The position numbers were made by a program, and so were the translations under genes. The notes under the pieces are model-generated. The model saw only the letters and a list, made by a program, of their open reading frames with translations, ran no database searches and was not told the DNA's origin. From contig NZ_CP129137.1 in assembly GCF_030406905.1 (NCBI RefSeq), positions 7,843,501-7,907,500 of the forward strand: a stretch of 64,000 nt of DNA, given 5' to 3'. The DNA is from Streptomyces sp. HUAS CB01 (GTDB lineage Bacteria > Actinomycetota > Actinomycetes > Streptomycetales > Streptomycetaceae). This document shows, piece after piece, positions 38,063-58,207 of the stretch (its first letter is position 1; each line of letters opens with the position of its first letter).

Positions 38063-38113
38063 TTCCGTACGTCGTACGGAAACTTCTCTTCGAGTAAACC
38101 ATACGATGTACGG
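38063..38113. promoter_or_regulatory. Pair of TetR-type palindromes, centres 34 bp apart
   Basis: TTCCGTACG-T-CGTACGGAA (38063-38081) is a perfect 9-1-9 palindrome centred at 38072. CCATACG-A-TGTACGG (38099-38113) is a near-perfect one centred at 38106. They stand 180 bases before the secreted-protein gene. The same core occurs at 46069, 51544-51669 and 58157-58207. Confidence 0.7.
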
Positions 38114-38611
38114 AAGCGCGAGTGCGAAGTTCCAGGCCCACCGGATCCGCAGGCGTTCCCTCCCCTGGATCGCTCCAGACCCGGCATGGCACACGACGCT
38201 GTCGAGCCTTCTCGACGAACTGCTCAACTCGCGCCGGCGCCCGGGGGAGCACGGGCTCCGCGCCACTCGGTCCCCTCCCGCCCGTCCCTCCGTCCTCGCG
38301 GCCGCTTGCCGAGGCGCGCGGGGCCGGCAGCGCCACCGTTCACACTCTGGTGCTCCGCCTGCGGCAGTTGATCGAGGAACCGACGTCAGTCGGCCCCCAG
38401 GCCCACCGGGTCGAGGGCGCCGACGACCCGACCCGATGCGTGAGTGCTGGTACCGACCGATATGACGGACGGGGGCCCGGATCCGGATCCGGATGATGTC
38501 GCCGGTGCCGGGCCGTCAGACGACGTCGTACCGCCACCGGGAGATGCCGGATACGGCCGCTACGAGGACGGTCGCTTCCGGAAGGTCCATCACCGCCACC
38601 TCGGGCAGGGG
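38114..38611. other. Stretch without a supported gene
   Basis: About 500 bases to the right of the palindromes. A plus-strand frame could start at ATG 38106 inside the second palindrome, much like the two TetR genes, and gives one helical-looking piece (HTTLSSLLDELLNSRRRPGE) before turning Arg/Pro-rich. Another frame near 38340 reads VHTLVLRLRQLIEEPTSVGP. I cannot join these into a gene. Confidence 0.35.
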
Positions 38612-38613
38612 CG

Positions 38614-38655
38614 AAAAAATAGGGGGCGCCGGTGCTCAGGAGAGCACCGACGCCC
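38614..38655 (-). terminator. Intrinsic terminator of the aromatic-catabolism operon
   Basis: GGGCGCCGGTGCTC (38624-38637) and GAGCACCGACGCCC (38642-38655) pair with a single mismatch and a 4-nt loop. On the minus strand the stem is followed by CTATTTTTTCG, a true T-tract. It lies 86 bases past the nitroreductase stop codon. Confidence 0.85.
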
Positions 38656-38740
38656 ACTGCAGGGCACCTCTCACCTCTACGCCGAACGCGCTCGGGGGCT
38701 CGGACGTCCCATCCCGCGCGACCAGGAGGCGGCAGCGCCG

Positions 38741-39364
38741 TCACGCATAGGCGACGGCGTCCTCGACGGGCACGCGGGGCAACCGCGGGAACCACGGGTC
38801 GTCACCGGGGTGGCCGATGTTGACCACCAGATGCGAACGCCAGCTGGTATCGGCGAAGAACTCCTCGTCCACGCCGGCCTTGTCGAAGCCCGCCATGGGA
38901 CCGGCCGCCAGCCCCGCTGCGCGCACCGCGAGCAGGAAGACCCCGGTCTGCAGTGCCGAGTTGTACGCCGCGATGCTCTCGCGCTTCTCGATCTGGCCGG
39001 CGAACGCCGCTCGCAGCATGTCGCCGCGGGCCGGGAAGACGGTCGGCATCTGCTCGTGGAAGTCGACGTCGTACGCCAGGATCGCCACGGCCGGCGCTTG
39101 AAGCGTCTTGGCCCTGTTGCCCTCGTCGAGATGCCGGACCAGCCGCTCCTTGCCCTCGCGGGTGCGCACGAAGAGCACGCGCAGAGGCTGGCCGTTGGCG
39201 GCGCTCGGTGACCAGCGGGCGAGTTCCCAGATCATGGCGAGTTCGTCGTCGGCGACGGCCACCTCGGCAAAGGTGTTCGCGGTGCGGGCCTCGGTGAACA
39301 GCACCTTTCGCCCGACGTCGTCGAGGGCGTCGAGGGCCTGCGGTTCGCGGTCGGTCGTGCTCAT
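38741..39364 (-). CDS. Nitroreductase family protein, RutE-like
   Basis: A 207-residue flavin-dependent reductase of the malonic semialdehyde reductase (RutE) type. Landmarks: the FMN-binding start ARTANTFAEVAVADDELAMI, WSPSAANGQPLRVLFVRTRE, and the C-terminal AGPMAGFDKAGVDEEFFADT and NIGHPGDDPWFPRLPR. ATG 39364 follows AAGAGAGAAACC. It is the last gene of the five-gene operon and ends before a strong terminator. A semialdehyde or an enone/quinone from the ring-cleavage pathway is a plausible substrate; this is inference from context. Confidence 0.85.
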   Translation of the reverse strand: MSTTDREPQALDALDDVGRKVLFTEARTANTFAEVAVADDELAMIWELARWSPSAANGQPLRVLFVRTREGKERLVRHLDEGNRAKTLQAPAVAILAYDVDFHEQMPTVFPARGDMLRAAFAGQIEKRESIAAYNSALQTGVFLLAVRAAGLAAGPMAGFDKAGVDEEFFADTSWRSHLVVNIGHPGDDPWFPRLPRVPVEDAVAYA

Positions 39365-39507
39365 GGTTTCTCTCTTGCTTCCGTTGTGTGGATGATGCGG
39401 TGCCGGGGCGGGTTGACCGCCCCGGCACCGCCCCGTGGGGACGGGGGTCTGCGGAGCCGGCGGCACAGGGATCCGGCGATGTCACGTGGCCTTGCGGCCC
39501 GTCGACG

Positions 39508-41526
39508 TCATGTGGGCCGGGTCGATCGCCTGCTCCGCTCGGTGCCCAGGCGGGCGAAGTAGGAGATCAGTTCGGGGTTGTCGACCGCCGAGGGGTTCAG
39601 GACCTGCTCGGCGGGGGCGCCCTGGAGCAGGCGCTTGACGGGAACCTCGAGCTTCTTCCCGGTCTTCGTGTGCGGGAGGGCCGGTACGCCCAGGATCTCG
39701 TCGGGGACATGGCGGGGGGAGGCGCCGGTGCGGATCGCGTCGCGGATCTTCTCGCGCAGGGAGTCGTCCAGGCCGACCCCGTCGGCGAGGACGACGAAGA
39801 GCGGCATCCAGTAGCCGCCGTCGGGTTCCTCCGCGCCGATGACGAGGGCCTCGGTGATCTCGGGGAGGCGTTCGACGATGTCGTGGATGTCTGCACTGCC
39901 CAGGCGTACGCCGTTGCGGTTGAGGGTGGCGTCGGATCGGCCGTGGACGATCACCGAGCCGTGGGAGGTGTGGGTGATCCAGTCGCCGTGCCGCCACACA
40001 CCGGGGTAGGCGTCGAAGTAGGCGGCACGGTAGCGGCTGCCGTCGGGGTCGTTCCAGAAGTACAGCGGCATGGACGGCATCGGCCGGGTGACGACCAGCT
40101 CGCCGACCTGGTCGAGGACCGGGGTGCCCGCCGCGTCGTACGCGGCTAGCGCCACGCCCAGGCCAGGGGCGGACAGCTCGCCCGCCCAGACGAGGGTCGT
40201 CGGGGCGCTGCCGGCGAAGCCGGAGACGACGTCCGTGCCGCCGCTGGTGGAGGCCAGCTGGACGCCGGCGCCCACGTGGTCGCGGACCCAGGGATAGGCG
40301 GAAGCGGGCAGCGCGGAGCCGGTGGAGCCGATGACGCGGATGGCCGACAGGTCGTGCACGGAGGGTTCGATGCCCAGCTTGCTCATGGCCAGCAGGTACT
40401 GCGGACTGGTGCCGAAGACGGTGACCTTGTGGCGGGCCGCCAGCTCCCACAGGATGCCCGGTCGCGCGAGGGGCGCGGGGCTGCCGTCGTAGGTGCAGGT
40501 GGTGGCGCCGGTCAGCAGGGTCGAGACGACCAGGTTCCACATCATCCAGTGGGTGGTGGTGTACCACAGCAGGCGGTCCCCGGTGCCCAGATCAGTGTGC
40601 AGGCCGAGTGTCTTGAGGTGTTCGAGCAGGACGCCGCCGTGCCCGTGGACGATGCCCTTGGGCAGGCCGGTGGTGCCGGAGGAGAAGACGACCCACAGCG
40701 GGTGGTCGAACGGCACCGGGGCGAGGGTGAGGTGCTCGGTGCGGGTGGCGGCGTCTTCCCAGGGCACCGTCAGCCCCGGGTGCCCGCCCTCGGGCCGGGC
40801 AAGGCCCACGTGGTCCACGAGCACCGTGGCCTTGAGTGTCGGCAGGGCGGCGGCGAGGTCGCGCGAGGCGGCGCGGCGGTCGTGTGTGGTGCCGTTGAAG
40901 AGGTAGCCGTCCGCGGTGATGAGCACCGTGGGTTCGAGCTGGGCGAAGCGGTCGGCGGCGGCCTTGGGTGCGTAGTCCTGGCCGCACACCGACCACACCG
41001 CGCCCAGGCTGGCGGTGGCGAGGAAGGCGATGACGGCGTGGGGCGTGTTGGGCAGGTAGCCCACCACCCGGTCGCCCTGTCCCACGCCCAGGTCGCGCAG
41101 GGTGGCCGCAACGGAGGCGACCTGGGCGCGCAGTCCTTGGCCCGTGATCTCGTAGCCGGATCCGGTCTCGTCCAGGGCGGTGATCGCGGGAGCGTCCGGC
41201 TGCAGGTTGCGCAGCGCGTGGTGGGCGTAGTTGAGGGTGGCGCCGGGAAACCAGCGGGCGCCGGGCATGGCCTCCTCTGCCAGTACCCGCTCGTACGGAG
41301 TCGTCGCATCGACGGCGAAGTACTCCCACACCGCGGCCCAGAACCCTTCCAGGTCGGTGATGGACCAGCGGTACAGGGCCTCGTAGTCGGTGGGGTCCTG
41401 GATTCCTTCGGCGCCCTGGTGCCGGGCCGCCCATCGGGCGAAGTCCGCGATGCGGCTGCGGGCGGCCGTCTCCGGGTCGGGAGTGAAGAAGGGTTCCGGA
41501 TACGGCGTGGGGTGCGGGGTGCTCAT
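39508..41526 (-). CDS. Acetoacetate-CoA ligase
   Basis: A 672-residue adenylate-forming enzyme. The N-terminal domain has the ACAS-type start (ALYRWSITDLEGFWAAVWEY, GARWFPGATLNYAHHAL), the AMP-binding motif is WVVFSSGTTGLPKGIVHGHG, and the TSGGTDVVSGF, NRNGVRLGSADIHD and PHTKTGKKLEVPVKRLLQG segments are specific for acetoacetyl-CoA synthetases. It activates acetoacetate to acetoacetyl-CoA with ATP. ATG 41526 has GAGGAG upstream; a 12-codon longer start at 41562 overlaps the previous gene. In this operon it may activate a keto acid released by the FAH-family hydrolase. Confidence 0.92.
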   Translation of the reverse strand: MSTPHPTPYPEPFFTPDPETAARSRIADFARWAARHQGAEGIQDPTDYEALYRWSITDLEGFWAAVWEYFAVDATTPYERVLAEEAMPGARWFPGATLNYAHHALRNLQPDAPAITALDETGSGYEITGQGLRAQVASVAATLRDLGVGQGDRVVGYLPNTPHAVIAFLATASLGAVWSVCGQDYAPKAAADRFAQLEPTVLITADGYLFNGTTHDRRAASRDLAAALPTLKATVLVDHVGLARPEGGHPGLTVPWEDAATRTEHLTLAPVPFDHPLWVVFSSGTTGLPKGIVHGHGGVLLEHLKTLGLHTDLGTGDRLLWYTTTHWMMWNLVVSTLLTGATTCTYDGSPAPLARPGILWELAARHKVTVFGTSPQYLLAMSKLGIEPSVHDLSAIRVIGSTGSALPASAYPWVRDHVGAGVQLASTSGGTDVVSGFAGSAPTTLVWAGELSAPGLGVALAAYDAAGTPVLDQVGELVVTRPMPSMPLYFWNDPDGSRYRAAYFDAYPGVWRHGDWITHTSHGSVIVHGRSDATLNRNGVRLGSADIHDIVERLPEITEALVIGAEEPDGGYWMPLFVVLADGVGLDDSLREKIRDAIRTGASPRHVPDEILGVPALPHTKTGKKLEVPVKRLLQGAPAEQVLNPSAVDNPELISYFARLGTERSRRSTRPT

Positions 41527-41542
41527 GGTGTGGTGCTCCTCG

Positions 41543-43162
41543 TCAGGGGACGTGCCGGACATCGGCGGGACGGCGGGCCGTGTGCAGCAGGGGAGCCCAG
41601 GCGGCGGTGTCCGTGAAGTCGCCGGTGCCGGCCGGGACGGTGTCCATCACGACGCGGTCGGGGCGCAGCAGGACGGCGTCGGCCCGGCCGCGTGCCAGCC
41701 AGGCGGCCAGGGCGCCGTCGTCTCCCAGGTCGTCGACGCGGACGGTGTGTGCGCCGAGCGCCGTGGCCACGGCCGTCATCTGCGCAGAGGGGGGCACGGC
41801 GGTCAGGATGGCGAAGGAGTCCCCGAGGAGGTCGTCGAGGCGCACTCGCCCGCCGTCGTGCCGTATCCAGGGCTGCGGGGAGAAGGTGCCGGCCAGCCCG
41901 CGGCCGGTGAGCCTGGGGCGGCGCCGAACCAGCGGTCCGGCGGTCAGGGCGGGGCTGAGGTCACGGCTCACCGCCGCGGTCACGCCGGGAAGTCGGCAGA
42001 CCGCGCCCACTACGGCCCGGCGAACCGCAGCAACGCGGTCCTGTCCGCCGGTCATGGCCCAGCCAACGGCGACCGCGACGCGGATCACATGGCGGGCGTG
42101 TGGCTTGCGCTCACGCTCGTAGGTGTCAAGCAGCCCCTCGTCCGCGCCCTGCCGGAGGACGCGAGCGAGTTTCCAGGTGAGATTGCGGGCGTCGCGCAGG
42201 CCGGCGCACAGGCCCTGCCCGACGAAGGGCGGGGTCAGGTGGGCGGCGTCGCCCAGCAGGAAGACACGCCCCCGGCGCCACCGGTCGGCGAGACGCGCCT
42301 GGAAGGTGTACTGCGCCTGCCGGATCACCTCGAAGTCGTCGCTTCGTGAGGCCGGCAGGTCCACCCAGGGGGCGACCAGCTCGCGCAGGCGCTCCCATCC
42401 GTCCGGGCCCTCCAGGTCCTGGTCGTCGGCCAGCCGGAACTCCCAGCGGTAGCGGTCCTCGCTGATGCGCATGAAGGTGGCCGGCCGGTGGGGACAGCAG
42501 ATCTGCTCGGCGCCCTCCCAGGTCCGCACCGGGCGGCTGGTGCGCACGTCGATGACCCGCCAGCTCTCCTGGAAGTGCAGGTCCTCCCACGCGGCGCCGA
42601 CGGCGTCACGGGTGAGGCTGCCCGCCCCGTCGCAACCGAGGACGGCATCGGCCCACAGGTGCTCCTCCTCATCGCTGCCGTCGCGCCGGAAGGTGACCCG
42701 GATCGGACCCGTCGGATCGTGGGGTGCGTCGGTGTTCGGCGTGTCGGACTCGGTGACGGACACGACCTCCACCCCGCTCCACAGCTCGCACTCCGGGCGG
42801 CGCGCCAGGGCGCCCCGCAGTAGGCGTTCCAGCTCTGGCTGGTTGAACATGCTCAGCTGCGGGAAGCCGTGGAGTCCGTGCAGGGACCGCGGGAACTCGC
42901 TGATCACGCGGCGGCGGGCGTCCAGCAGCCGTAGGCCGGGCGCCGGGCGGGCGAGGGCGGCGAACTCCTCATGGACGCCGACGCTCTGCAGGATCCGGCG
43001 GACCTCGTCGTCCACGACGACGGCCCGTGGCAAGGGGTAGACATCGGGGTGGCGTTCGAGGAGCAGGCTGCGCACTCCGTACCGGGCGAGCAGGAGCGCG
43101 GCCGTGACTCCCACGGGTCCCGCACCGATGATCACCACCGGTGTCCGGGATGCGGCCTTCAT
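41543..43162 (-). CDS. FAD-dependent aromatic hydroxylase, MhpA-like
   Basis: A 539-residue flavoprotein monooxygenase of the 3-(3-hydroxyphenyl)propionate hydroxylase type. The FAD fingerprint is VVIIGAGPVGVTAALLLARY, the second motif is VLGCDGAGSLTR, and the third, RVFLLGDAAHLTPPFVGQGL, is typical of class A hydroxylases; the C-terminal thioredoxin-like part is present. It would add a hydroxyl group to a phenolic substrate with NAD(P)H and O2, forming a catechol for the adjacent dioxygenase. It overlaps the upstream gene by four bases (ATGA). Confidence 0.88.
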   Translation of the reverse strand: MKAASRTPVVIIGAGPVGVTAALLLARYGVRSLLLERHPDVYPLPRAVVVDDEVRRILQSVGVHEEFAALARPAPGLRLLDARRRVISEFPRSLHGLHGFPQLSMFNQPELERLLRGALARRPECELWSGVEVVSVTESDTPNTDAPHDPTGPIRVTFRRDGSDEEEHLWADAVLGCDGAGSLTRDAVGAAWEDLHFQESWRVIDVRTSRPVRTWEGAEQICCPHRPATFMRISEDRYRWEFRLADDQDLEGPDGWERLRELVAPWVDLPASRSDDFEVIRQAQYTFQARLADRWRRGRVFLLGDAAHLTPPFVGQGLCAGLRDARNLTWKLARVLRQGADEGLLDTYERERKPHARHVIRVAVAVGWAMTGGQDRVAAVRRAVVGAVCRLPGVTAAVSRDLSPALTAGPLVRRRPRLTGRGLAGTFSPQPWIRHDGGRVRLDDLLGDSFAILTAVPPSAQMTAVATALGAHTVRVDDLGDDGALAAWLARGRADAVLLRPDRVVMDTVPAGTGDFTDTAAWAPLLHTARRPADVRHVP

Positions 43163-44097
43163 GGTGTGTCCGTAACGGGGGTCCGCTGCTCGCCGAGGTC
43201 GATCTGCCCGTCGGGGGTGGCGATCGTGGCGGTGATGAGGTCACCGTCGCGCAGGTAAAGGGGGTTCTTGGCCTGGCCGTTGAAGAACGCCTTCCACTTC
43301 AGCGCGGGCGGCAGCAACGCGCTGATCTTCGCGATCGGCTTGGGCGGGGCCTTCAGGGCGGTGCCGCCGGGAGTGCCGGTCAGCAGCAGGTCGCCCGGGT
43401 CGAGGGTCTGGAAGCGGGCGAGCAGGGTGAGCGCCTGGGCCGGTCGTACGATCATGTCGGCGAGCGTGCGGTCCTGGCGCGGCACGCCGTTGACCGACAG
43501 CCGCAGTCGCAGGTTCAGCAGATGAGCGAAGTCCTCGGGCTCCAGCAGAGCCAGATACGGACCGGTCGGTGTGAAGGTCGGGTAGGACTTGCTCTCGTAG
43601 AACTGGGTCTTGGTCAGCTGGACGTCGCGGGCGCTGACGTCGTTGGTGAGGACGAGCCCGGCAACGTAACGGGGCAGGTCCCGCTCCTCCACAACCGTGC
43701 CCACCGGCAGTGTCGCGCCCATGACGAGGCCGAGTTCGACCTCGTAGTCGAGGAACTTCACGTGCGGGGGCCGGACGATCGTGTCGTGCGGGCCGCTGAC
43801 CGAGCCGGACGCCTTGCGGAAGAAGGTGGGCGGGATGTCGCCGGTGAAGCCCGAATCCTTGGCGTGGCTGCGGTAGTTGACCATCTGGGCGACCACCCTG
43901 CAAGGGGTGGTGACCGGAGGCAGCGCCACCAGGTCGGCGACGGGCGTGCCGCTCTCGGCGGAGGCGGCGGCCTCGCGGACCGCGTCCCGGTCGGCGAGCA
44001 GTTCGGCGGTGGTGACCGCCTTGGTCTCGACGCGGACGGCGCGCTCGCCCCGGACAGCCCACCAGCCGTCGGTGGTGCGCAGAACGTTGGTGCTCAT
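43159..44097 (-). CDS. Fumarylacetoacetate hydrolase family protein
   Basis: A 312-residue FAH-fold enzyme. The metal ligands Glu-Asp are in KFLDYEVELGLVMG, with the loop NYRSHAKDSGF upstream and LTNDVSARDVQLTKTQFYES downstream; GDLLLTGTPGGTAL and DGDLITATI complete the family signature. FAH-fold enzymes hydrolyse carbon-carbon bonds of diketo acids or hydrate/decarboxylate keto acids. Between a dioxygenase and a hydroxylase it most likely processes the ring-cleavage product. It overlaps both neighbours by four bases. Confidence 0.88.
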   Translation of the reverse strand: MSTNVLRTTDGWWAVRGERAVRVETKAVTTAELLADRDAVREAAASAESGTPVADLVALPPVTTPCRVVAQMVNYRSHAKDSGFTGDIPPTFFRKASGSVSGPHDTIVRPPHVKFLDYEVELGLVMGATLPVGTVVEERDLPRYVAGLVLTNDVSARDVQLTKTQFYESKSYPTFTPTGPYLALLEPEDFAHLLNLRLRLSVNGVPRQDRTLADMIVRPAQALTLLARFQTLDPGDLLLTGTPGGTALKAPPKPIAKISALLPPALKWKAFFNGQAKNPLYLRDGDLITATIATPDGQIDLGEQRTPVTDTP

Positions 44098-45239
44098 GAG
44101 CTCATCGCTTTCATCAGGCCCAGCAGGCGTGCGGGGTCGAGTTCGTTGTCGCCGCGCAGGGCCGTCATGACCTCGCGCAGCTTGGCGGGGGACGGGTTCG
44201 TGCCCAGGAAGTCACGGGTGACCGGCGGGCCCCACTGGGCGAGACCGCTCGCCGACATCGGCGCCCAGCCGGGCTCCAGGTCGCAGGAGAAGAGGTCGCC
44301 GTCGGCGAAGTGCTCCAGCATGAAGCGGTCGGGGTCGCGCCAGTAGTCGAAGAGCTGGCTGCCCTGGATGTGCCGGCCGATGCCCCAGCTGCGCCGGTAG
44401 CCGCGTTCGGCCAGGTACTCCCCACCGGCGGCGATCGCGTCGAGGTCGGTGACCTGGTAGGCGGAATGGACATAGCCGGTTCCGGGTCCCAGGTGCAGGG
44501 CCAGCGTGTGGTGATCCACGGCCAGGCTGCCCTGGTCGCACCGGATGAACGCCATCGTCGGCCCGCGCCCGCGCTGACCGTCCAGGAACAGGAAGTCGGA
44601 CACGATCATCCCGAGGGTGTCCAGGTACCAGTCCAAGGTGCGGGCGAACAACGGTGTCTCCAGCACCACATGGCCCAGCCGCTGGATGCGGGACGGTTCA
44701 CGGGGCGGACGCTGGGTGGCGTTCGTACGACGGTGATCGCTACCGAAGTTGAAGATCAGCGGCTGCTGCTCGGGCAGCGCGGGCAGTTGCTCGGCGCAGT
44801 GCACGACCCGGACCGGCAGGCCCGAGGGATCGAGCAGGGCGACCGACTGCCCACCGCCCGGTACGCCGATGTCCCGGACGCTACTGCCGGTGGAGCGGGC
44901 CAGACGGTCCAGATCGGCCCGTTCGGCCGCGCGGAACGCAGGCCCGATGAACCGGGACGCACGCCCCTTGCGGATCACCATGCACGGCGAGCCGGCGAAG
45001 GTGCCGCGCAGCCACAGCTCCGACTCGGTGCGGGCGGCGATCGCGAAGCCGAAGTCACGCGCGAAGACCTCGGCCCGGTCCAGGTCGGGCTTCTCGAACT
45101 CCAGCCAGGCCAGATCGGCCACCTTGATCACCGGACTGCGGGAACGTCCGGGGTGCTCGCCGCGCAGGGCGCCCTGCTCACTGTGGAGGTCTTGGTGGGG
45201 CGTCTCGGGAGCGGCGCTGTCAACGGGGGTGTGGGACAT
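44094..45239 (-). CDS. Extradiol (type I) ring-cleavage dioxygenase
   Basis: A 381-residue VOC-family dioxygenase with two repeats of the fold. The iron ligands in the C-terminal repeat are His in RLGHVVLETPLF, His in LAVDHHTLALHLG and Glu in RFMLEHFADG. The N-terminus has about 45 extra residues before the first fold (VIKVADLAWLEFEKPDLDRA). ATG 45239 has GGAGGGAACC upstream. The enzyme would cleave a catechol next to one hydroxyl with O2. It is the first gene of the operon, divergent from a TetR regulator with a 136-bp A/T-rich spacer. Confidence 0.88.
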   Translation of the reverse strand: MSHTPVDSAAPETPHQDLHSEQGALRGEHPGRSRSPVIKVADLAWLEFEKPDLDRAEVFARDFGFAIAARTESELWLRGTFAGSPCMVIRKGRASRFIGPAFRAAERADLDRLARSTGSSVRDIGVPGGGQSVALLDPSGLPVRVVHCAEQLPALPEQQPLIFNFGSDHRRTNATQRPPREPSRIQRLGHVVLETPLFARTLDWYLDTLGMIVSDFLFLDGQRGRGPTMAFIRCDQGSLAVDHHTLALHLGPGTGYVHSAYQVTDLDAIAAGGEYLAERGYRRSWGIGRHIQGSQLFDYWRDPDRFMLEHFADGDLFSCDLEPGWAPMSASGLAQWGPPVTRDFLGTNPSPAKLREVMTALRGDNELDPARLLGLMKAMSS

Positions 45240-45321
45240 GGTTCCCTCCAAGCAACATTGCCGTAATGAGAAAATCATCAACTTTGCTGATACTCATCGT
45301 CAATAGGGTGAGGCCAAAGAA

Positions 45322-45337
45322 TTGATGGCTTCATCAG
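45322..45337. promoter_or_regulatory. Operator-like palindrome in the catabolic promoter region
   Basis: TGATG-GCTT-CATCA (within 45322-45337) is a perfect 5-4-5 palindrome, 39 bases from the TetR start. Further TCATC/GATGA pieces occur at 45270-45300. The spacer is markedly A/T-rich for this genome. Confidence 0.5.
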
Positions 45338-45375
45338 TGATGCGGGGCTCATCGTGGCGTTGTTACACTCGCCGC

Positions 45376-46068: not shown

Positions 46069-46083
46069 CCATACAACGTATGG
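46069..46083 (+). promoter_or_regulatory. TetR-type palindrome overlapping a start codon
   Basis: CCATACA-A-CGTATGG is a 7-1-7 palindrome with one mismatch, centred at 46076. Its last four bases are the ATGG of the TetR gene start. No Shine-Dalgarno sequence fits between them. Confidence 0.7.
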
Positions 46084-46736
46084 AAAAGTCGAGGAAGGCT
46101 CCCCGGGGGACCAGGAAGAGGGCCGTCCCCCTCACCAAGGACGGCATCCACGCCATGGCGCTGCAGCTCATCGACGCCGATGGGGTCGAGGCGCTCACCA
46201 TGCGTAAGCTCGCGACCGCGCTGGATGCGAATCCGATGTCGCTGTACCACCACGTGCCGAACAAGGACGCAGTGCTGCGTGGCGTGGCCGAGAGCGTCGG
46301 CTCGCGGTTCCGTGCGGGGGAGCGGGAGGACATCCCCTGGCAGGACCGTCTTCGCCGGCTGGCTCTTGACTTCCGTGAACTGTCGCACCGCCATCCGAAA
46401 CTGATGGCGTACTCCTTCGCGCGAGCCGACTACGTCCAGCCGGAGGACCCCTTTTGGCAGGGGCTCATCGACATCCTGGCCGCCGCGAAACTGCCGGCCT
46501 CGGAGATCCCGCGCGTCGCCGCCTCCCTGTGCGCGGTTTTCACGGGGCTGCTGCTGAGCGAACTCACCGGAGCGCTGCAGCGGTGGACCACCCTGCCGCC
46601 GGCGCCGGTCGGCGCCGACGGGGAACACGCCCCCGCTCCCGCGAAGAACGTGATCGACGCGATGTTCAACTGTGCGCTCGACGCCACGATCGTCGGCCTG
46701 GAGAGCCACGTCGCACGAACCCGCGAGGAGCCGTGA
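46080..46736 (+). CDS. TetR family regulator, paralogue A
   Basis: A 218-residue repressor with a basic N-terminus (MEKSRKAPRGTRKRAVPLTK), the helix-turn-helix (ALTMRKLATALDANPMSLYH, HVPNKDAVLRGVAESVGSRF) and the TetR_C type helical domain (PWQDRLRRLALDFRELSHRH, PKLMAYSFARADYVQPEDPF). It is a clear paralogue of the regulator at 51666. The ATG at 46080 lies inside the palindrome, so the mRNA is probably leaderless or has a very short leader, and the gene is self-controlled. The longer frame to 46011 overlaps the upstream gene and is rejected. Confidence 0.88.
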   Translation: MEKSRKAPRGTRKRAVPLTKDGIHAMALQLIDADGVEALTMRKLATALDANPMSLYHHVPNKDAVLRGVAESVGSRFRAGEREDIPWQDRLRRLALDFRELSHRHPKLMAYSFARADYVQPEDPFWQGLIDILAAAKLPASEIPRVAASLCAVFTGLLLSELTGALQRWTTLPPAPVGADGEHAPAPAKNVIDAMFNCALDATIVGLESHVARTREEP

Positions 46737-47041: not shown

Positions 47042-48088
47042 TCAGGGGACGAGGATGAGGCGGATCGGGTCGCCGATCTTGTTCTCCAGCCGGTCGACCG
47101 CGTCGGCCGCCTCGGCGAGCGGGATGTGGTCGGTGATGGAGGGGGCGAGGTCGAGGCGGCCGGCTGCGGTCAGCTGCACCAGCTCGGAGACGGACTCGGG
47201 GAAGCCGCCGTAGTGGCCGCGCACCTGCTTCTGCAGGTAGTTGAAGGTCAGGCCCTCGGTGATGGTCAGTGGCCGGGGTGTGATGCCGACCAGGATCAGG
47301 GAGCCGCCCAGACCGAGCACGGAGGCGGCCTGGTCGCGGACGGCGGGGACGCCTGCGCAGTCGAAGGCGAAGTCGAGGCCTCGTCCAGCGGTGGCCGCGT
47401 ACACCTGGTCGGCGAAGTCGTCGGCCGTCGGGTCGAGGGCGAGATCCGCGCCGAACGCCAGCGCGCGCTCGCGGGCGCTGGGCAGCGGGTCGACGGCGAT
47501 GATCGGGGCGGCGCCGACCAGGCGGGCGAGGCGTACGTTGTGCGCACCGACTCCGCCCACGCCCCAGACACCGACGGACTGGGCGGCACGGACGCCCGCG
47601 GTGGCGACGACGGCGGCGTAGGGGGTGGAGACCGCGTCGGGGATGATCGCGGCCTGGTCGAAGGGGAGACTGTCGGGAATGGGGATGAGGGTGTCCTCGC
47701 GGGCGATCACATACTCGGCCCAGCCGCCGTCGTAGTCGATGCCGGCGGTGAGCATCTGGGTGCAGGGGCGGTGGCGCACGCATCCGGCGCACTTACCGCA
47801 GGTCTTGCCGGCCTCCAGGGTGACGCGGGCGCCGACGGCCAGGCCGCGCTTGAGGTCGGGGCCGAGCGTGTGGATCACACCGGAGACCTCGTGGCCGACG
47901 GTGACCGTGTCGGAGGTGGCGAACAGCGGGACGAGGGAGCCGTCGAGCAGGTGGACGTCGGAGAGGCAGACGCCGGCGGCCTTGACCTCGATGAGGACCT
48001 CGCCCGGGCCCGGCACGGGGATCGGGACCTCTTCCACGGCGAACTTCTTGCTGTCCAGGTGGAAGCGTCCGGCGAGCATGGTGTCCAT
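47042..48088 (-). CDS. Zinc-dependent alcohol dehydrogenase
   Basis: A 348-residue medium-chain dehydrogenase. Catalytic zinc ligands are Cys in AAGVCLSDVHLLDG and His in VTVGHEVSGVI; the structural zinc is held by four Cys in CGKCAGCVRHRPC (preceded by GKT). The cofactor fold shows VGVWGVGGVGAHNVRLARL. ATG 48088 begins the family-typical N-terminus; the frame extends to 48202. It follows the CYP102-type gene by 159 bases on the same strand and may oxidise its alcohol products, which is inference from context. Confidence 0.9.
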   Translation of the reverse strand: MDTMLAGRFHLDSKKFAVEEVPIPVPGPGEVLIEVKAAGVCLSDVHLLDGSLVPLFATSDTVTVGHEVSGVIHTLGPDLKRGLAVGARVTLEAGKTCGKCAGCVRHRPCTQMLTAGIDYDGGWAEYVIAREDTLIPIPDSLPFDQAAIIPDAVSTPYAAVVATAGVRAAQSVGVWGVGGVGAHNVRLARLVGAAPIIAVDPLPSARERALAFGADLALDPTADDFADQVYAATAGRGLDFAFDCAGVPAVRDQAASVLGLGGSLILVGITPRPLTITEGLTFNYLQKQVRGHYGGFPESVSELVQLTAAGRLDLAPSITDHIPLAEAADAVDRLENKIGDPIRLILVP

Positions 48089-48247
48089 GGTGATCTGCTT
48101 TCTGTGAGCGGCACGGCCCGGTGGTCCGGGCCATGGGTGCCATGGGGTGTCTGAGTGGCTGGTGGGGCCGGGTGGCGTGCGGGGGAGGCAGGACGTCCGC
48201 ACGCCTCCCGGCGGCTGGGGTCGGCGCGCCTTGACGGCGTGCGAGGG

Positions 48248-51200
48248 TCAGGCGAAGACGTCCTGCTGGTAGCGCTCGTCCGCTTCGAGCTGGGCGAGCC
48301 ACTGCTGGGCGGTCTCGTCGTCGCTGCCGGTGTTCTGGCGGTGGATGGCGGCGAGGGCCTCGCGGACGGCGGGGGCCATGCGGCGGCCGTCACCGCAGAC
48401 GTAGATGTACGCGCCGTCCTGGATCGCCTGCCACACGGTGTCTGCGGCGTTCGCGATGGCGTTCTGCACGAACCGGGCGGGGTGGCCGGTCACCGCCGAG
48501 TAGGCGGTGTGCACCTGGGCGATGCCGGCCTGCTGCCAGTCCTGCATCTCCTGGCGGTAGAAGTAGTCGTGCTCCGGGTGGCGGCAGCCGACGAACACCT
48601 GGGACAGGCCCACCTGGGTGCCGTTCGCGTGCTGTGTCGCCCGCTCCTCCAGGAAACCGCGCAGCGGCGCGATGCCGGTGCCGGGGCCGATGAGGATCAG
48701 CGGCGTGGCGGGGTCGGCGGGCGGGGCGAACGTCGGGGAGGGCACGCGGACGTAGCCGTAGACGACGTCTCCGGGCTCCAGGCTCGCGATGTAGGAGGAG
48801 CAGGTGCCGCGGTACTGGCCGTCGCCGGACAGGGCCGGGCCCTCCAGCAGGCCGACGGTCAGGCGCACGTGGTGCGGGTTGGCCGACGGGGCGGAGGAGA
48901 TGGAGTAGAAGCGGGGACGGATGGGGCCCATCATCTCCAGGAAGACCGCCAGCGGCAGTTCGACGGCCGGGAAGCGCTCGAGCAGGCCCAGGACGGAGAC
49001 ACGCTTGCCGAGGATCTCCTTCTGGTAGCGCTCCTCGGCCTCCTCCGTCTCGGCGGTGTACGCCTGGAGCTGCGGCCGGGTCCATGGGCACGCCGTGTTC
49101 TCGGCGAGGGTCTGGATCTGGGACCGGGTGGCCACGTCCTGCAGTTCCAGGAACTCGGTGAGCAGCAGGCCGGCGGTGACCGGGGTGCCGACCGGCAGGT
49201 GGGTGCGGCCACCGGCCGGCTGCTCGAGCCGCAGCACCTGGTCGTAGTCGACGCCGAGCCGCTTCAGGGCGCGCTCGACCAGGGCGAGTTCGTTCTTGGC
49301 GAAGACGGCCAGGTGGTTGCCGGTGTCGTAGGTGACGCCCTCGGGCAGCTCGACGGTGATGGACTTCGCCGACGGGCGCGGCGGCTCGATGGCGAAGTCC
49401 CACAGGCCGGTCGCGTCGGCCACGAGCTCCTCGTTGGCCACCACGGTGAGCGGGTACGCCTGCTCGGAGACGATCGCGGGGCGCACGTCGGACTCGGTGA
49501 GCAACTGGACCTGGTAGCGGGGGCCGCTCGCCTGGGAGGTGTCGGCGGCGTATTCCTCGGCCAGAGTGGCCCACAGGTTGTCCATCCACCGCGTGGCCAT
49601 GCCGTCGAAGTCACCGGCGGCGTCCGCGATGCCGCGCTCGACGACGGGGGTGGCGCCGGCGGCCAGCAGACCTTCCTCGATCCGCTTGGGGAAGGCCTGG
49701 TAGGTGGCCACCCATTGGGTGTTGCCCGCGCCCAGCAGTGCGAACCGCACATTGGACAGGGAGCCCTCGGGCAGTCCGGCGGCCAGCAGGTCGTCGAAGT
49801 GCTGGGCGTTGTCGGGGGCCTTGCCGTTGTAGCTGGAGGCGACGACCACGAGCAGGCCCTCGCTGGGCAGGTTCTCGCCCAGCTCGTCCAGGCTCACCAG
49901 CGTGGTGCCGAAGCCGGAGCGCTCACTGCGGTCGGCGATGGTGCGCGCCAGGTCCTCGCTGGAGCCGAGGCTGGAGCCGTAGGCGACGGTCATGTTGACC
50001 CCGACGCCGCTCACCGCTGCCTGCGCCTGCGTGTCGTCGGTCTGCAGGGCCTCGGCGCCGAAGACGGTCCGCTCGTGCTCCTGACGGCGGCGGACGACCA
50101 GCTCGAAGTTGCCGGGCTTGCGCGTCAGCGCCTCCCGGGGGTCCATCTTGTAGTCGCTGGTGTCGGCGAACTTGAACTTCTGCAGCACCAGCGCAAGGGC
50201 CAGGCGGGCCTCGACGAGCGCGAACTGGCGGCCGATGCAGGCACGTAGGCCGTTGCCGAACGGCTTGTAGGCGTGCGGGTGCTGATTGACCCGGTTCTCC
50301 GGCAGCCACCGGTCGATGTCGAACTCCTCCGGCCGCTCCCACGCCTTGGGGTGGGTGTGCAGCGGGCCCTCGAGGATGAGGACCTTCGTGTCCTTCTTCA
50401 GCTCGTAGCGGCCGCCGATGACGGTGTCCTCCCGCGCCGTCTTGCCGAACGACGGGATGGGAGCCCACAGGCGCAGCGTCTCGTCCAGGATCCGCGGGAT
50501 GACGTCCATCTGCATGATCGTGTCGTAGTCCGGCACGGTGTCGCCCGGCAGCAGGCGGTCCACCTCGGCATACGCCTGGGCCAGCACGGACGGGTTGCGC
50601 ATCAGCGAGTACGTGGCGAACGACAGCAGACCACTGGTGGTCTCGTGACCGGCGATCAGGAACGTCAGCACCTGGTCGCGGACGTTGTCGATGTCCAGCT
50701 TCTTGCCGGTCTCCGGGTCGGTGGCCTCCAGCATCAGACCCAGCAGGTCATCCTCACCGCTGGACTGCCCCTCGCGGCGCTCCTTGATCACATTTTCGAC
50801 CAGCTCCTGCATCATCTGGATGTTCGCGCCGTACCTCTTGGCATCGGCCTTGCGGAGCTTGGTCATCATCGGGAGTTCCTGCGAGCGCCGCAGCGACTCG
50901 ATCAGCGCCTCCAGCAGCGCGTTGAGGAAGGGGTGCAGCTCCTCCTTCTCGAAGGAGTCGAACCGGTAGCCGAACCCGGACAGGGCGATGGTGTCCAGGG
51001 TGAGCCGGGTGTAGTCGTCGGTGATGTTGACCGACTGGCCCTCCCGGCGCTCCCACTTGCCCGCCAGGTTCTGGGCGATCTCCAGCATCTGCCCGAAGTA
51101 ATTCCTCATGGCGCGCTGGCTGAAGGCCGGCAGGAGGATCCGGTGCGCCATGCCCCATTCCTCTTCGTGCTGGTGGGCCGTGAACAGGCCCGAACCCGCG

Positions 51201-51469
51201 AAGTCCCGGACATGCTGCAGCGGCGTCTTCTCGATCTGCTTGAAGAACCGCGTCTCGTCGGAGACCTCGGCCACCAGGTCCGGGTCGTAGACGAAGATCT
51301 GCTCGATACCGGCGATGTCCAAGCCGTAGATGCCCTCGGGGAACTGCTTGGACAGCTCGGCGAAGTACTCCACCGGGTTGGTGCCGGGGATCTGCGGCGT
51401 GTTGCCCAGGAGGGGGATCCCGCGCGGGGACCGGATGGGGCGAAGGTCGTTCGCGGAGTGCGTGGTCAT
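48248..51469 (-). CDS. CYP102-type self-sufficient P450/reductase fusion
   Basis: A 1073-residue fusion enzyme with the architecture of P450 BM3. The P450 domain (about 1-460) has the oxygen-binding helix LIAGHETTSGLLS, the ExxR motif DETLRLWAP and the heme Cys at about residue 411 in FGNGLRACIGRQFALVEARL. The FMN domain starts YGSSLGSSEDLARTIAD. The reductase part has RPRFYSISSAPSANPHH (FAD), GPGTGIAPLRGFLEERA (NADPH) and CGDGRRMAPAV. Known members hydroxylate medium- and long-chain fatty acids near the omega end. ATG 51469 follows GAGGAG. It is divergent from a TetR gene with four palindromes between them. Confidence 0.95.
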   Translation of the reverse strand: MTTHSANDLRPIRSPRGIPLLGNTPQIPGTNPVEYFAELSKQFPEGIYGLDIAGIEQIFVYDPDLVAEVSDETRFFKQIEKTPLQHVRDFAGSGLFTAHQHEEEWGMAHRILLPAFSQRAMRNYFGQMLEIAQNLAGKWERREGQSVNITDDYTRLTLDTIALSGFGYRFDSFEKEELHPFLNALLEALIESLRRSQELPMMTKLRKADAKRYGANIQMMQELVENVIKERREGQSSGEDDLLGLMLEATDPETGKKLDIDNVRDQVLTFLIAGHETTSGLLSFATYSLMRNPSVLAQAYAEVDRLLPGDTVPDYDTIMQMDVIPRILDETLRLWAPIPSFGKTAREDTVIGGRYELKKDTKVLILEGPLHTHPKAWERPEEFDIDRWLPENRVNQHPHAYKPFGNGLRACIGRQFALVEARLALALVLQKFKFADTSDYKMDPREALTRKPGNFELVVRRRQEHERTVFGAEALQTDDTQAQAAVSGVGVNMTVAYGSSLGSSEDLARTIADRSERSGFGTTLVSLDELGENLPSEGLLVVVASSYNGKAPDNAQHFDDLLAAGLPEGSLSNVRFALLGAGNTQWVATYQAFPKRIEEGLLAAGATPVVERGIADAAGDFDGMATRWMDNLWATLAEEYAADTSQASGPRYQVQLLTESDVRPAIVSEQAYPLTVVANEELVADATGLWDFAIEPPRPSAKSITVELPEGVTYDTGNHLAVFAKNELALVERALKRLGVDYDQVLRLEQPAGGRTHLPVGTPVTAGLLLTEFLELQDVATRSQIQTLAENTACPWTRPQLQAYTAETEEAEERYQKEILGKRVSVLGLLERFPAVELPLAVFLEMMGPIRPRFYSISSAPSANPHHVRLTVGLLEGPALSGDGQYRGTCSSYIASLEPGDVVYGYVRVPSPTFAPPADPATPLILIGPGTGIAPLRGFLEERATQHANGTQVGLSQVFVGCRHPEHDYFYRQEMQDWQQAGIAQVHTAYSAVTGHPARFVQNAIANAADTVWQAIQDGAYIYVCGDGRRMAPAVREALAAIHRQNTGSDDETAQQWLAQLEADERYQQDVFA

Positions 51470-51543
51470 GGCTTGCTCCTCTGCGTGGAGGGGAATGGGC
51501 AAGGGCGCGCTGCTCAGGTCGATGCCGTGGCGCCGTACGGAAA

Positions 51544-51669
51544 CATACGCCGTATGGAATTGGTACCATACGACGTATGGAAATGTGAAGCAAGCCTGGT
51601 CGCCTGGTGGACGCTGTGATCTGGGCCATTTTCATACGACGTACGAAACTGATACCGTACGAGGTATGG
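51544..51669. promoter_or_regulatory. Four TetR-type palindromes in two pairs
   Basis: The palindromes are CATACG-C-CGTATG (centre 51550), CCATACG-A-CGTATGG (centre 51573), TTTCATACG-A-CGTACGAAA (centre 51639) and CCGTACG-A-GGTATGG (centre 51662). The first two face the P450 gene and the last two the TetR gene; within each pair the centres are exactly 23 bases apart. The last one includes the TetR start codon. Confidence 0.8.
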
Positions 51670-52367
51670 AAAGTAAGGTGAGGCATCCCCCGCGGGGAAC
51701 GAGGAAGAGGGACGTGCCTCTGACCGAGGCCGGGATCTACGCCGCCGCCCTGCGGCTGATCGACGCGGACGGTGTCGAGGCGCTCACCATGCGCAAACTC
51801 GCCACCAAGCTCGACGCGAACCCGATGTCGCTGTACCACCACGTGCCGAACAAGCAAGCGGTGCTGCGTGGCGTGACCAGAATGGTCGGCGCCCAGTTCC
51901 GCACCGTGACGCTTGAGGACGCTCCCTGGCAGGAGCGCATCCGCCTGCTCGCAACGGACTTCCGGACCCTGGCGCACCGTCACCCCGAACTGATGGCCTA
52001 CTCGTTCAGCCACCAGCCGGACTTCATCCAGCCCGACGACCCGTTCTGGACCGCGCTCACCGCGATCGTGGAGGCTGCCGGGGTTCCGCAGTCAGAGGTC
52101 TCGGAGATCGCGGCGCTGATGGTCGCCGTCGTCATCGGAGTCCTCGCCGCCGAAATCAACGGCTCGCTCCACCAGTGGTCGACCCTCAAGCCCCCAGGCT
52201 TTGACGATGGTGAAGACGGTGACGGGGATGCAGACCCTGACTCTGCGGACACAGCTCCTGAAGGCCCTGACCAGGACCACATGTTCCGCCTCGTGCTGGA
52301 CACGCTGATCACGGGTCTGGAAAGCCGGCTCACCGGCGATCGTGACGGGCGGGACGCCGGCCTTTGA
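51666..52367 (+). CDS. TetR family regulator, paralogue B
   Basis: A 233-residue repressor very similar to the one at 46080: basic N-terminus (MESKVRHPPRGTRKRDVPLT), helix-turn-helix (ALTMRKLATKLDANPMSLYH, HVPNKQAVLRGVTRMVGAQF) and the same C-terminal domain type. Near residues 180-205 it has an acidic insertion (DDGEDGDGDADPDSADTAPE) that the other lacks. The ATG at 51666 lies in a palindrome. Its placement opposite a CYP102-type gene parallels Bm3R1 and P450 BM3 in Bacillus megaterium, where a TetR repressor is released by fatty acids. Confidence 0.9.
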   Translation: MESKVRHPPRGTRKRDVPLTEAGIYAAALRLIDADGVEALTMRKLATKLDANPMSLYHHVPNKQAVLRGVTRMVGAQFRTVTLEDAPWQERIRLLATDFRTLAHRHPELMAYSFSHQPDFIQPDDPFWTALTAIVEAAGVPQSEVSEIAALMVAVVIGVLAAEINGSLHQWSTLKPPGFDDGEDGDGDADPDSADTAPEGPDQDHMFRLVLDTLITGLESRLTGDRDGRDAGL

Positions 52368-55927: not shown

Positions 55928-56353
55928 TCACCCTTCGGCGAGGAAGTGAGCCAGCAAGCGGTCGATGTCGCTGTGGCCGAGCTCGGCCCCCCTGGGCACC
56001 ACTGCCTCGGTTTCCTGCAGGAACGCCTTGAATTCCTGCGCCGGGGCCTTGAGCAAGGCCGAACCGGACGGCGGGTTGAGAAGGATGTACAAGTCGCGCC
56101 AGCCCTCCTCGCCGGTGGGCCATATGCGAACGTCCCCCTCGCCGGCGGGGCCCTCCAGGCCGTCGATCAGCAGATCGCGCCCGATGATCCATTCCACCAG
56201 CTCGTCGCTGTCGCCATCGGTGGTGAATGCGACATGGACGACATAGGGGTCGCTCGGCTCGTACCGCAGCTTCATGATCAAGGGCAAGGACGTCGCGTGC
56301 GCGCCTACGAGCTTCGCAGGTAGCCCCTGGATCACAGTTCTCAATGACTTCAT
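55928..56353 (-). CDS. SsgA-like protein (SALP), second copy
   Basis: A 141-residue SsgA-family protein. Landmarks: LRYEPSDPYVVHVAFTTDGD, LVEWIIGRDLLIDGLEGPAG, EGDVRIWPTG and FLQETEAVVPRGAELGHSDI. It is very similar to the copy at 36881, including the N-terminus MKS..TVIQGLP. ATG 56353 follows CAGGAG. The family works with other cell-division proteins to place septa and spore walls in Streptomyces; which SALP subtype this is cannot be told. It is preceded by an inverted repeat shared with the first copy. Confidence 0.88.
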   Translation of the reverse strand: MKSLRTVIQGLPAKLVGAHATSLPLIMKLRYEPSDPYVVHVAFTTDGDSDELVEWIIGRDLLIDGLEGPAGEGDVRIWPTGEEGWRDLYILLNPPSGSALLKAPAQEFKAFLQETEAVVPRGAELGHSDIDRLLAHFLAEG

Positions 56354-56464
56354 GGGGTCTTACTCCTGGTGCTTTGAGTCATCCGGGGAGGGCCATCGGA
56401 AGGGCTGTCGTCGGATTCAAAGGGGCTGAACAGAGAAGCGGTTACTGCGAGGACCGGTGACGGT

Positions 56465-56502: not shown

Positions 56503-56543
56503 TCGCAGGGGCGCCCGGTCGACGGGAGCAGGCGAGGCCACAG

Positions 56544-56640: not shown

Positions 56641-56679
56641 CCGGCCCTTCTGGCCCCGTCACTCGTCGCAGGCCGACCG

Positions 56680-57009
56680 TCAGCGCAAGGGTGAGTCCAC
56701 GGTGGGCGTCAGGAGGGTCTCGTCGAGGCCGACGATCTGGCTGATGTCGAAGCCCTCCATGTCCGCGAGGAATTCAGGACTCGACAGGTATGCCTCCAGC
56801 CGCTCCCGCACGTCGTCGGCGTCCTTGTAGGAAACGAGGGCGTACAGCCGGGGAGTGTCGCTTCCGGGCGCCGCGGGCAGCGTCCAGACGCCGTGCGTGG
56901 TGATCCGGTGCTTGGCCATACCGGGAATGTGCTTGGCCCAGATCTTCTCGTAGTCGGAGAGGGCATCAAGGCTGCGCAGGGTGTAGACGCGAAGCTGGTA
57001 CTGGGACAT
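56680..57009 (-). CDS. NIPSNAP family protein
   Basis: A 109-residue ferredoxin-like-fold protein with the NIPSNAP pattern YQLRVYTLRSLDALSDYEKI, HGVWTLPAAPGSDTPRLYAL and VSYKDADDVRERLEAYLSSP. The family resembles dimeric alpha/beta-barrel proteins; no enzymatic role is established. ATG 57009 has AAGGAACC upstream. It lies 38 bases after the third SsgA-like gene and is probably co-transcribed with it and with the secreted protein gene. Confidence 0.85.
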   Translation of the reverse strand: MSQYQLRVYTLRSLDALSDYEKIWAKHIPGMAKHRITTHGVWTLPAAPGSDTPRLYALVSYKDADDVRERLEAYLSSPEFLADMEGFDISQIVGLDETLLTPTVDSPLR

Positions 57010-57047
57010 GACAGGTTCCTTTTCTTCGGAGCTTGGATGGTCGGCGG

Positions 57048-57470
57048 TCAGCCTTGCGAGGGGAGGCGTGCCAGTTCGACGTCCCAGTCGATGTGTCCGG
57101 ACTCGGTACCTCGTGGCACCAGAGCCTCCGTGTTCTGGAGGAAGGACATGAGGTCCATCACAGGGACCTCGAGCAAGGCGGTGCCGGCGGAGGATCCGAG
57201 GGCGATGTACATCAACTGGTCGCCCCGCCCCGCGGCCGACCAGATCCGGACGTCTGCGTAGCCTGCGGACCCCTTCAGGCCACCAGCCAGAAGATCCCGC
57301 CCCAGAACCCATTCGACCGGCTCGTCACAGTCGACGAAGAAGGCGGCACGGACGACGTAGGGATCAGTGGGCTCGTACCGCAGACGTACGCACAGGGGCA
57401 CTGAGGAGTCGCGCGAGACGACCAGTTGTACGGCGACCCGCCGCTCTATGGCCTTCAAGGACTTCTTCAT
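57048..57470 (-). CDS. SsgA-like protein (SALP), third copy
   Basis: A 140-residue SsgA-family protein: VQLVVSRDSSVPLCVRLRYE, PTDPYVVRAAFFVDCDEPVE, WVLGRDLLAGGLKGSAGYAD, VRIW and FLQNTEALVPRGTESGHIDW. It is less like the other two copies than they are like each other. ATG 57470 has GGAAAG upstream; the frame extends to 57659 through non-coding sequence. It sits between a secreted protein gene and the NIPSNAP gene, on the same strand. Confidence 0.87.
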   Translation of the reverse strand: MKKSLKAIERRVAVQLVVSRDSSVPLCVRLRYEPTDPYVVRAAFFVDCDEPVEWVLGRDLLAGGLKGSAGYADVRIWSAAGRGDQLMYIALGSSAGTALLEVPVMDLMSFLQNTEALVPRGTESGHIDWDVELARLPSQG

Positions 57471-57655
57471 TGACTTTCCGCTTCTGTGCGTGGCTCGGCG
57501 GTGCCTCATGCCCGGCCTGTGGCGAAGAGGCAGCGCGGGCGGAGGTGGACCAGCAGGTCGCGGGCGCCGGTCCCCGACCGCCGGGCGTGTCTCTGCCGCA
57601 GGCGGGGATCGGACCGCGAGGAACGGCCGGTCCCACGGCCTCGACCAGTCCCGTC

Positions 57656-58069
57656 TCACCGGTCGTCGCGGATCAGGTAGTAGTGGTCCCTGCCCCGGCC
57701 GTCGTGCCAGAGGCGGTTTCGGTCGTGGTGGTACGACCTGTCCGACTTCCAGACGTGTCCCTCACCCTCCCCGCGGTAGAAGTGGCCATCGCGGTAGAAG
57801 AGACCGTCACAGTCGTGCCGGGGCGAGTCGGTGTGGTGGTGGTCCTGGTGCCAGCCGCGGATCGCGTCGCAGGAGTAGCCCTGCTCGAGCAGGTAGCCGA
57901 CACCGTGGTCCCAGCTGTAATCAGCGGCCACGGCCCCTTCGGCCGGGCGCTGGACGTGTGTGGATGCGAGGGGCGCGGCCGAAGCGGTGCCTCCGGCACC
58001 GAGGACGGCGACACCGGCGACCGCGACGGAGGAGACAGCGAGGGCGATTCGCTTCGTGGGCTGCTTCAT
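57656..58069 (-). CDS. Small secreted His/Asp/Tyr-rich protein
   Basis: A 137-residue exported protein. The signal peptide MKQPTKRIALAVSSVAVAGV ends near GGTASAAP. The mature part is rich in His, Asp, Arg, Tyr and Gly (GWHQDHHHTDSPRHDCDGLF, YRDGHFYRGEGEGHVWKSDR) and has two Cys. The signal peptide resembles that of the 37524 protein, and the module order (palindrome pair, secreted protein, SsgA-like protein) is the same. ATG 58069 follows GGAAAAG. Function is unknown; metal or surface binding is possible. Confidence 0.75.
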   Translation of the reverse strand: MKQPTKRIALAVSSVAVAGVAVLGAGGTASAAPLASTHVQRPAEGAVAADYSWDHGVGYLLEQGYSCDAIRGWHQDHHHTDSPRHDCDGLFYRDGHFYRGEGEGHVWKSDRSYHHDRNRLWHDGRGRDHYYLIRDDR

Positions 58070-58156
58070 GATCTTTTCCTTCCCGGTTGGCGTGATCTGC
58101 GCCAACGGCGGTTCTGTCAGGCGACGTGCGGCGCCTGGCGTGGTCCGAGCGACGAG

Positions 58157-58207
58157 TTTCATACGCTGTATGGAACTGCCCTTCCATTGCTACCATACGC
58201 CGTATGG
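58157..58207. promoter_or_regulatory. Second pair of TetR-type palindromes, centres 34 bp apart
   Basis: TTTCATACG-C-TGTATGGAA (58157-58175, centre 58166) and CCATACG-C-CGTATGG (58193-58207, centre 58200). The distance of 34 bases equals that of the pair at 38072/38106. They lie 90-140 bases before the secreted-protein gene. Confidence 0.75.

Follow-up and report, generated by a model that had tools for sequence, protein, structure and literature searches.

A shared palindrome as candidate operator of a TetR regulon joining a CYP102-type P450 with SsgA-like and secreted proteins in Streptomyces sp. HUAS CB01

Introduction

Do a P450/reductase fusion, two TetR-type regulators and several sporulation-family and secreted proteins belong to one regulon? 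This question is raised by a 64,000-nt stretch of the Streptomyces sp. HUAS CB01 genome (contig NZ_CP129137.1, positions 7,843,501 to 7,907,500; the window), in which a palindrome with the core CCRTACG-N-CGTAYGG recurs at four loci: before two modules that comprise genes for a small secreted-type protein (Sec) and SsgA-like proteins, at the start of a TetR gene (TetR A), and between a CYP102-type P450 gene and a second TetR gene (TetR B). A preliminary description had proposed a TetR regulon that joins the P450, both TetR genes and the modules, and the comparison of related genomes supports this proposal. We consider it very probable that the palindrome is the operator through which TetR A and TetR B, as counterparts of SAV576 and SAV577 of Streptomyces avermitilis, repress the P450, the TetR genes and the modules.

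The palindrome itself is not new, as it has been published for the SAV576/SAV577 system. According to the main texts of two papers (PMC3742746, PMC4051647), SAV576 and SAV577 are similar TetR repressors of the CYP102-type gene SAV575; they bind CCRTACRVYGTATGS, and the regions that they protect between SAV575 and SAV576 are the same. Footprints, electrophoretic mobility shift assays and chromatin immunoprecipitation (ChIP) thus already prove the P450/TetR half of the proposal in that species. The SAV575 product is the P450/reductase CYP102D1, for which oxidation of fatty acids has been reported, and SAV574 and SAV575 are co-transcribed. SAV576 acts as a repressor of its own gene and of SAV577, whereas SAV577 represses SAV576 but not itself. 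Footprints and mutated probes revealed that SAV576 binding requires the palindrome, and one of the sites covers the SAV576 start codon. The SAV575 transcription start was mapped 87 nt before the start codon. Avermectin production is kept low by both repressors in a manner that has been explained only in part, and SAV579-580(ssgZ)-581(secreted) form one transcription unit near SAV575-577 (PMC3742746, PMC4051647). Similar sequences were noted in many other promoters, with putative SAV576 targets in Table S2 (PMC3742746), and the authors of 2014 called for ChIP-seq to find further targets (PMC4051647). Elsewhere, SAV576-577 are given as a gene expansion (PMC3388780). Judged by titles and abstract openings, none of the publications retrieved beyond PMC3742746 and PMC4051647 links the TetR/P450 operator to the module; the apparent "SAV580" mentions in PMC5107987 and PMC3765725 refer to SAV5800 and SAV5807.

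Palindromes in the window and in the genome

Nine sites were found when the window was scanned (mismatches are counted against the core), in agreement with the eight to nine sites and the centres given in the preliminary description. Module 1 is preceded by an exact site on the Sec side (38065..38079) and by a site with one mismatch 34 bp away (38099..38113). A further site with one mismatch (46069..46083) overlaps the start codon of TetR A, with the ATG lying within the right half site. On the P450 side of the TetR B region there are a P450-proximal site with one mismatch (51543..51557) and an exact one 23 bp on (51566..51580), followed by an upstream TetR B site with two mismatches (51632..51646) and another with one mismatch (51655..51669), which overlaps the TetR B start codon and has the same position in relatives. 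Module 2 has a site with two mismatches on the Sec side (58159..58173) and an exact site 34 bp away (58193..58207). The centre spacings of 34 in both module pairs and 23 in both P450/TetR B pairs are those described before. By eye, 46069, 51566 and 58193 match the published consensus CCRTACRVYGTATGS, and the other window sites differ from it at some positions.

The sites are concentrated at these loci when the motif is kept strict. With up to one mismatch, all seven window matches lie at the four loci, and with up to two, nine of eleven (14843 and 17423 being outside); allowing three mismatches yields 23 matches versus 13.34 +/- 3.09 in 100 shuffles, the shuffle maximum being 21. In the whole genome (8.1 Mb) the exact core occurs at six places, five of them at regulon promoters and the sixth inside a predicted open reading frame (ORF; L003). 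Another 26 places have one mismatch, four in the regulon and 22 outside. The stricter form CATACGNNGTAYGG has nine distinct exact places, eight of which are in the regulon. The regulon promoters include that of a third copy of the module, which is situated towards the opposite end of the chromosome and preceded by a further pair 34 bp apart (C1:106334 and 106368). This copy has kept its operator pair although it lies ~7.8 Mb from the TetR genes.

Conservation and co-inheritance in related genomes

The position, conservation and co-inheritance of the operators at the P450, the TetR genes and the modules were followed across genomes. Protein searches of 295 same-genus genomes (cut-offs: TetR E<=1e-40, the secreted gene Sec2 of module 2 E<=1e-8, NIPSNAP E<=1e-25) retrieved TetR in 21, Sec2 in 15 and NIPSNAP in 14. 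All 15 Sec2 genomes and all 14 NIPSNAP genomes fall among the 21 TetR genomes; at the thresholds used, neither Sec2 nor NIPSNAP was found in the 274 genomes lacking TetR. The strict twin motif behaves likewise: it is present in 15/295 genomes, all among the 21 with TetR, and strict pairs number 0/274 in those without, while the reversed-pattern control gave 0/295. The two sites are spaced by 34 or 33 at modules, by 23 between CYP102 and TetR B, and by 32 between TetR A and CYP102 (two genomes).

Loci selected by protein rather than by motif gave a similar picture. An operator pair precedes Sec2 at 19 of 22 loci (18 at 34 bp, one at 33); these 19 include both terminal-repeat copies from one genome as well as two loci of the present genome. 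The control for this count, 1.0 Mb of reversed sequence, produced 25 sites and no pairs. The three others have a single site and are more distant paralogues with 39-48% identity. With an operator at 22/22 Sec2 loci scored, the module constitutes a specific, testable candidate target set. A more distant secreted paralogue in three genomes (L232:4891, L236:4405, L206) has the single operator CCATACGCTGTATGG, on the other strand, 187-188 bp upstream. When distinct Sec promoters are counted, leaving aside matches that start after query residue 30 and identical upstream stretches, 39/40 carry the pair; 15 of the 40 come from motif-chosen loci and three from the present genome, and 21 of the 22 others are paired.

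For the TetR genes, 52 of 53 TetR-protein-selected loci in named genomes have an operator (<=2 mismatches) located between -250 and +25 relative to the matched start. The 53 loci (L121-L173 of 61) are at least 53% identical to TetR A, and in the sole exception, L142, the protein match starts at residue 22. The eight loci left out (L174-L181) are weaker or partial matches, L175 covering query residues 25-66 only; three of them have a site with <=2 mismatches in the same interval. Among TetR genes scored individually (excluding matches that start after residue 8, are shorter than 150 amino acids, lie near a contig end or repeat identical stretches), an operator within -160..+20 is present in 68/68, and 57 of these have the ATG within the right half site as their start codon. 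Furthermore, CCRTACGNNGTATGG has 52 exact places in 12 whole TetR genomes. TetR, CYP102 or Sec promoters account for 48 of them; one of the others lies before an MFS gene and three are elsewhere, and the reversed control gave two. In L081, a 26-bp operator pair (5344-5384) is located ~500 bp before an MFS transporter gene whose protein is 86% identical to that at 52759 of the window.

The TetR-selected loci extend to Rhodococcus opacus, Arthrobacter, Saccharothrix and Actinoallomurus. Within the stretch examined, six Arthrobacter loci and the Rhodococcus, Saccharothrix and Actinoallomurus loci had no Sec, SsgA-like or NIPSNAP match, which suggests a wider distribution for the P450/TetR core than for the module. 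The locus on a contig of R. opacus ATCC 51881 (L129) has TetR A (84%), TetR B (73%), CYP102 (88%) and operators, and looks like a transfer between genera. Three more distant TetR loci (L176, L177 and L180, 27-42% identical) have a similar palindrome upstream, so this operator type may be wider than the TetR A/B pair.

Across 23 non-redundant module promoters the sites have the form TTCCATACG-N-CGTATGG, followed by TA in one site and AA in the other. Information content is 1.79 bits per base in the sites, 1.23 in the spacer, and 0.56 and 0.44 in the flanks. The module spacing is rather constant in relatives (34 in 35/39 pairs, 33 in three, 35 in one). P450/TetR sites are mostly 23 bp apart, but also 22 and 24, and 26 in the S. 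avermitilis-like layout, and before some TetR A genes the spacing is 30-32. A remark in the preliminary description that the two window spacings differ by one helical turn is arithmetically sound (34-23=11). Since the P450/TetR spacing varies among relatives, we did not uphold a helical-phase rule.

Comparison with published repressors of CYP102 genes

The likeness to the SAV576/SAV577 system extends to gene content, as both loci have a P450/reductase fusion with a dehydrogenase, a 15-bp palindrome with the same core, a site over a TetR start codon and an ssgZ/secreted-protein unit close by. The TetR proteins of the pair are 59% identical in S. avermitilis and 57% here, and the first has 218 amino acids in both. 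There are differences, too: in the window TetR A and TetR B flank the alcohol dehydrogenase-CYP102 pair, and four operators lie between the P450 and TetR B, compared with two at the SAV575 promoter. The published SAV574-SAV575 primers match dehydrogenase and P450 genes in relatives (window not included) with <=2 mismatches; of the two primers for SAV579-SAV581, one matches the NIPSNAP gene of relatives, again with <=2 mismatches. The S. avermitilis locus was not among the TetR or primer search results; a published primer matched 4/392 genomes at one mismatch and none exactly.

Bm3R1 and FatR of Bacillus belong to the fatty-acid-displaced regulators. They are likewise TetR-family repressors of CYP102 P450s, and FatR binds a palindrome (PMC3814354). 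The 18-bp FatR palindrome before the fatR-cyp102A3 operon is described as the sole ChIP-on-chip site (PMC3814354). Unlike this layout of one operon and one operator, the present locus has a divergent TetR gene, four operators and further candidate targets.

Proposed regulation and points against it

On the basis of these comparisons, TTCCATACG-N-CGTATGGAA would be the operator of TetR A and TetR B. TetR dimers at one or two operators would repress the CYP102-type P450 and its dehydrogenase, and would also repress the TetR genes, most of which have their start codon within an operator. For the P450 and dehydrogenase, and largely for the TetR genes, binding and repression have been shown by others in S. 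avermitilis. If the SAV575 map transfers and the window P450 starts near 51469, the two P450-proximal operators would cover approximately the start site and the -10 region. We infer that TetR dimers also bind and repress the two nearby modules and the distant one via twin operators 34 bp apart, that the divergent ferredoxin-reductase-P450 set is perhaps repressed together with the modules, and that a small hydrophobic or aromatic ligand would release the repressors and so turn on the targets together. The module half is a well-supported extension of the known system as far as sequence comparison goes, and was possibly foreseen in Table S2 of PMC3742746, with SAV581 perhaps among the putative targets there. 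It ties sporulation-family (SsgA-like) proteins, as candidate targets, to the control of fatty-acid-type P450s. More tentatively, one may speculate that a P450 repressor pair couples the oxidation of a hydrophobic signal molecule to cell development, one ligand derepressing two different P450 systems and, on both chromosome arms, SsgA-family and secreted proteins, in a single co-inherited regulon of regulator, operators and targets whose parts need not be linked; we regard this broader idea as possible but doubtful.

Several observations weigh against the proposed regulation. Two genomes have a strict twin only at TetR A-CYP102 and lack Sec2, two have Sec2 without a strict twin, and six of the 21 TetR genomes lack Sec2. 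As the genomes are related, the co-occurrence P-values (about 1e-20 to 4e-19) are overstated. Conservation in the module promoters extends to the spacer and may thus stem in part from promoter elements or common ancestry. Of the 68 TetR genes scored, 11 have no start-codon operator, and nine of these 11 come from Arthrobacter loci. The left and right arms of the palindrome show no covariation beyond independence, and arm covariation was dropped as support for a palindrome. In S. avermitilis, the SAV576 transcription start was mapped 405 nt upstream of the start codon (PMC3742746, PMC4051647), which places the start-codon operator there far downstream of it. Moreover, SAV577 is reported not to bind its own promoter, and thus identical behaviour of the two TetR proteins cannot be assumed at every site. 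Finally, the main texts of PMC3742746 and PMC4051647 report no promoter binding or expression test for SAV579-581.

Alternative explanations

The most serious alternative would be that only the P450/TetR promoters are under TetR A and TetR B, the module operators being disused copies from a promoter duplication or sites of another regulator. ATGGAA(A/C)TGTCGAGG follows the outer module operator in many promoters and by eye resembles the TetR A start, as an origin of the module promoter by copying would predict, and modules 2 and 3 are paralogous (76-91% protein identity). Disused copies, however, are difficult to reconcile with sites that stay conserved while their flanks diverge, with the near-constant spacing of 34, with the restriction of Sec2 and NIPSNAP to TetR genomes at the thresholds used, or with a third copy that retains its pair so far from the TetR genes. 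We therefore regard this alternative as unlikely. Still less probable is that the palindrome is the signature of an alternative sigma factor promoter. The 23-bp spacing is near the distance from -35 to -10, and TACCAT or TACCGT is found 7 nt ahead of the start codons of TetR A and TetR B, respectively; yet one promoter cannot fit spacings of 30-35, no sigma-70-like promoter was found in 51450-51750, and the published footprints and mutated probes tie SAV576 binding to the palindrome.

That the motif merely reflects chance or GC-rich coding bias has next to no probability, even though the loose motif lends it some colour. With <=2 mismatches there are 328 matches genome-wide versus 115 for the reversed pattern, and 16 of 21 examined non-regulon places with one mismatch are within predicted ORFs; the remaining such place, C1:7913891, is within the ORF L035:5451-7388. 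Hence the claim in the preliminary description that the motif occurs only at promoter positions applies to the window at <=1 mismatch but not to the loose motif genome-wide, and of the random scatter against which the motif was to be checked, only the loose form shows any. The strict and paired forms rarely occur outside regulon promoters, and their reversed controls stayed at zero genomes for the pair and two places for the single strict form. Because the loose motif also occurs in coding sequence, specificity would be carried by the CATACG/CGTATG core and by pairing. All in all, the operator function for TetR A and TetR B is the reading that we prefer.

Genes of the P450/TetR locus and of the modules

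TetR A (SAV576-like, 218 amino acids, PF00440) is encoded on the plus strand at 46080..46736, and TetR B (SAV577-like, 233 amino acids, PF00440 and PF13305) on the same strand at 51666..52367. Between them, on the minus strand, lie a SAV574-type zinc alcohol dehydrogenase (47042..48202, PF08240/PF00107), for whose relatives the published primer matches hold, and the SAV575-type CYP102 P450/reductase fusion (48248..51502 as the longest ORF; p450, Flavodoxin_1, FAD_binding_1, NAD_binding_1), the true start of which is probably near 51469.

Module 1, on the minus strand, consists of Sec1, an ORF for a small protein with a signal-like N-terminus (37524..37886) whose relatives have twin operators, an SsgA-like protein (36881..37315, PF04686, E 3.9e-33) and a conserved third gene (36063..36770), which has no Pfam match and is conserved in L081 and L231. 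In module 2, also on the minus strand, Sec2 (57656..58069, 137 amino acids, signal-like N-terminus) is joined by an SsgA-like protein in the ssgZ position (57048..57470, PF04686, E 2.1e-28), a NIPSNAP protein in the SAV579 position (56680..57009, PF07978, E 1.8e-16) and a second SsgA-like protein (55928..56353, PF04686, E 5.4e-32). The NIPSNAP gene is present in modules 2 and 3. In the profile scan, the PF04686 cut-off was exceeded by three module genes in the window and by two in the third copy; the four SsgA-like proteins scanned against the SsgD equivalog scored 88.3 to 97.6, short of its cut-off of 185. The predicted structure of Sec2 (mean pLDDT 54) is too poor for fold comparison. A conserved leader peptide starting from the ATG in the outer module operator was considered and rejected, as the frame lengths are scattered and 12/39 reach 30 amino acids.

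Divergent from module 2, on the plus strand, are genes for a ferredoxin (60138..60356, PF13459, ~1.9 kb from the operator), a ferredoxin reductase (60293..61756 as the longest ORF, PF07992) and a P450 without fused reductase (61817..63091, PF00067). A divergent ferredoxin gene is located within 3 kb of 24/39 module promoters, in 12 of these 24 within 250 bp, and one operator pair may thus serve both sides. After the third module copy come a ferredoxin reductase with 93% identity to that of the window and a partial P450 (L031:8553-10562), and by eye a short stretch of the window (58560-58605) resembles the reductase gene. The module may therefore have been copied together with the reductase.

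TetR A is adjoined by a catabolic cluster (38741-45281) for an extradiol dioxygenase, a FAH-type hydrolase, a FAD hydroxylase, and acyl-CoA synthetase-like and nitroreductase-like proteins. Directly before TetR A is a TetR gene of a second type (TetR_C_40, 45322-46011), which in many relatives is again found next to the dioxygenase gene and may control the adjoining cluster. Past the window end, fragments at L035:10025-10836 are identical in protein sequence to parts of the hydroxylase and hydrolase of this cluster.

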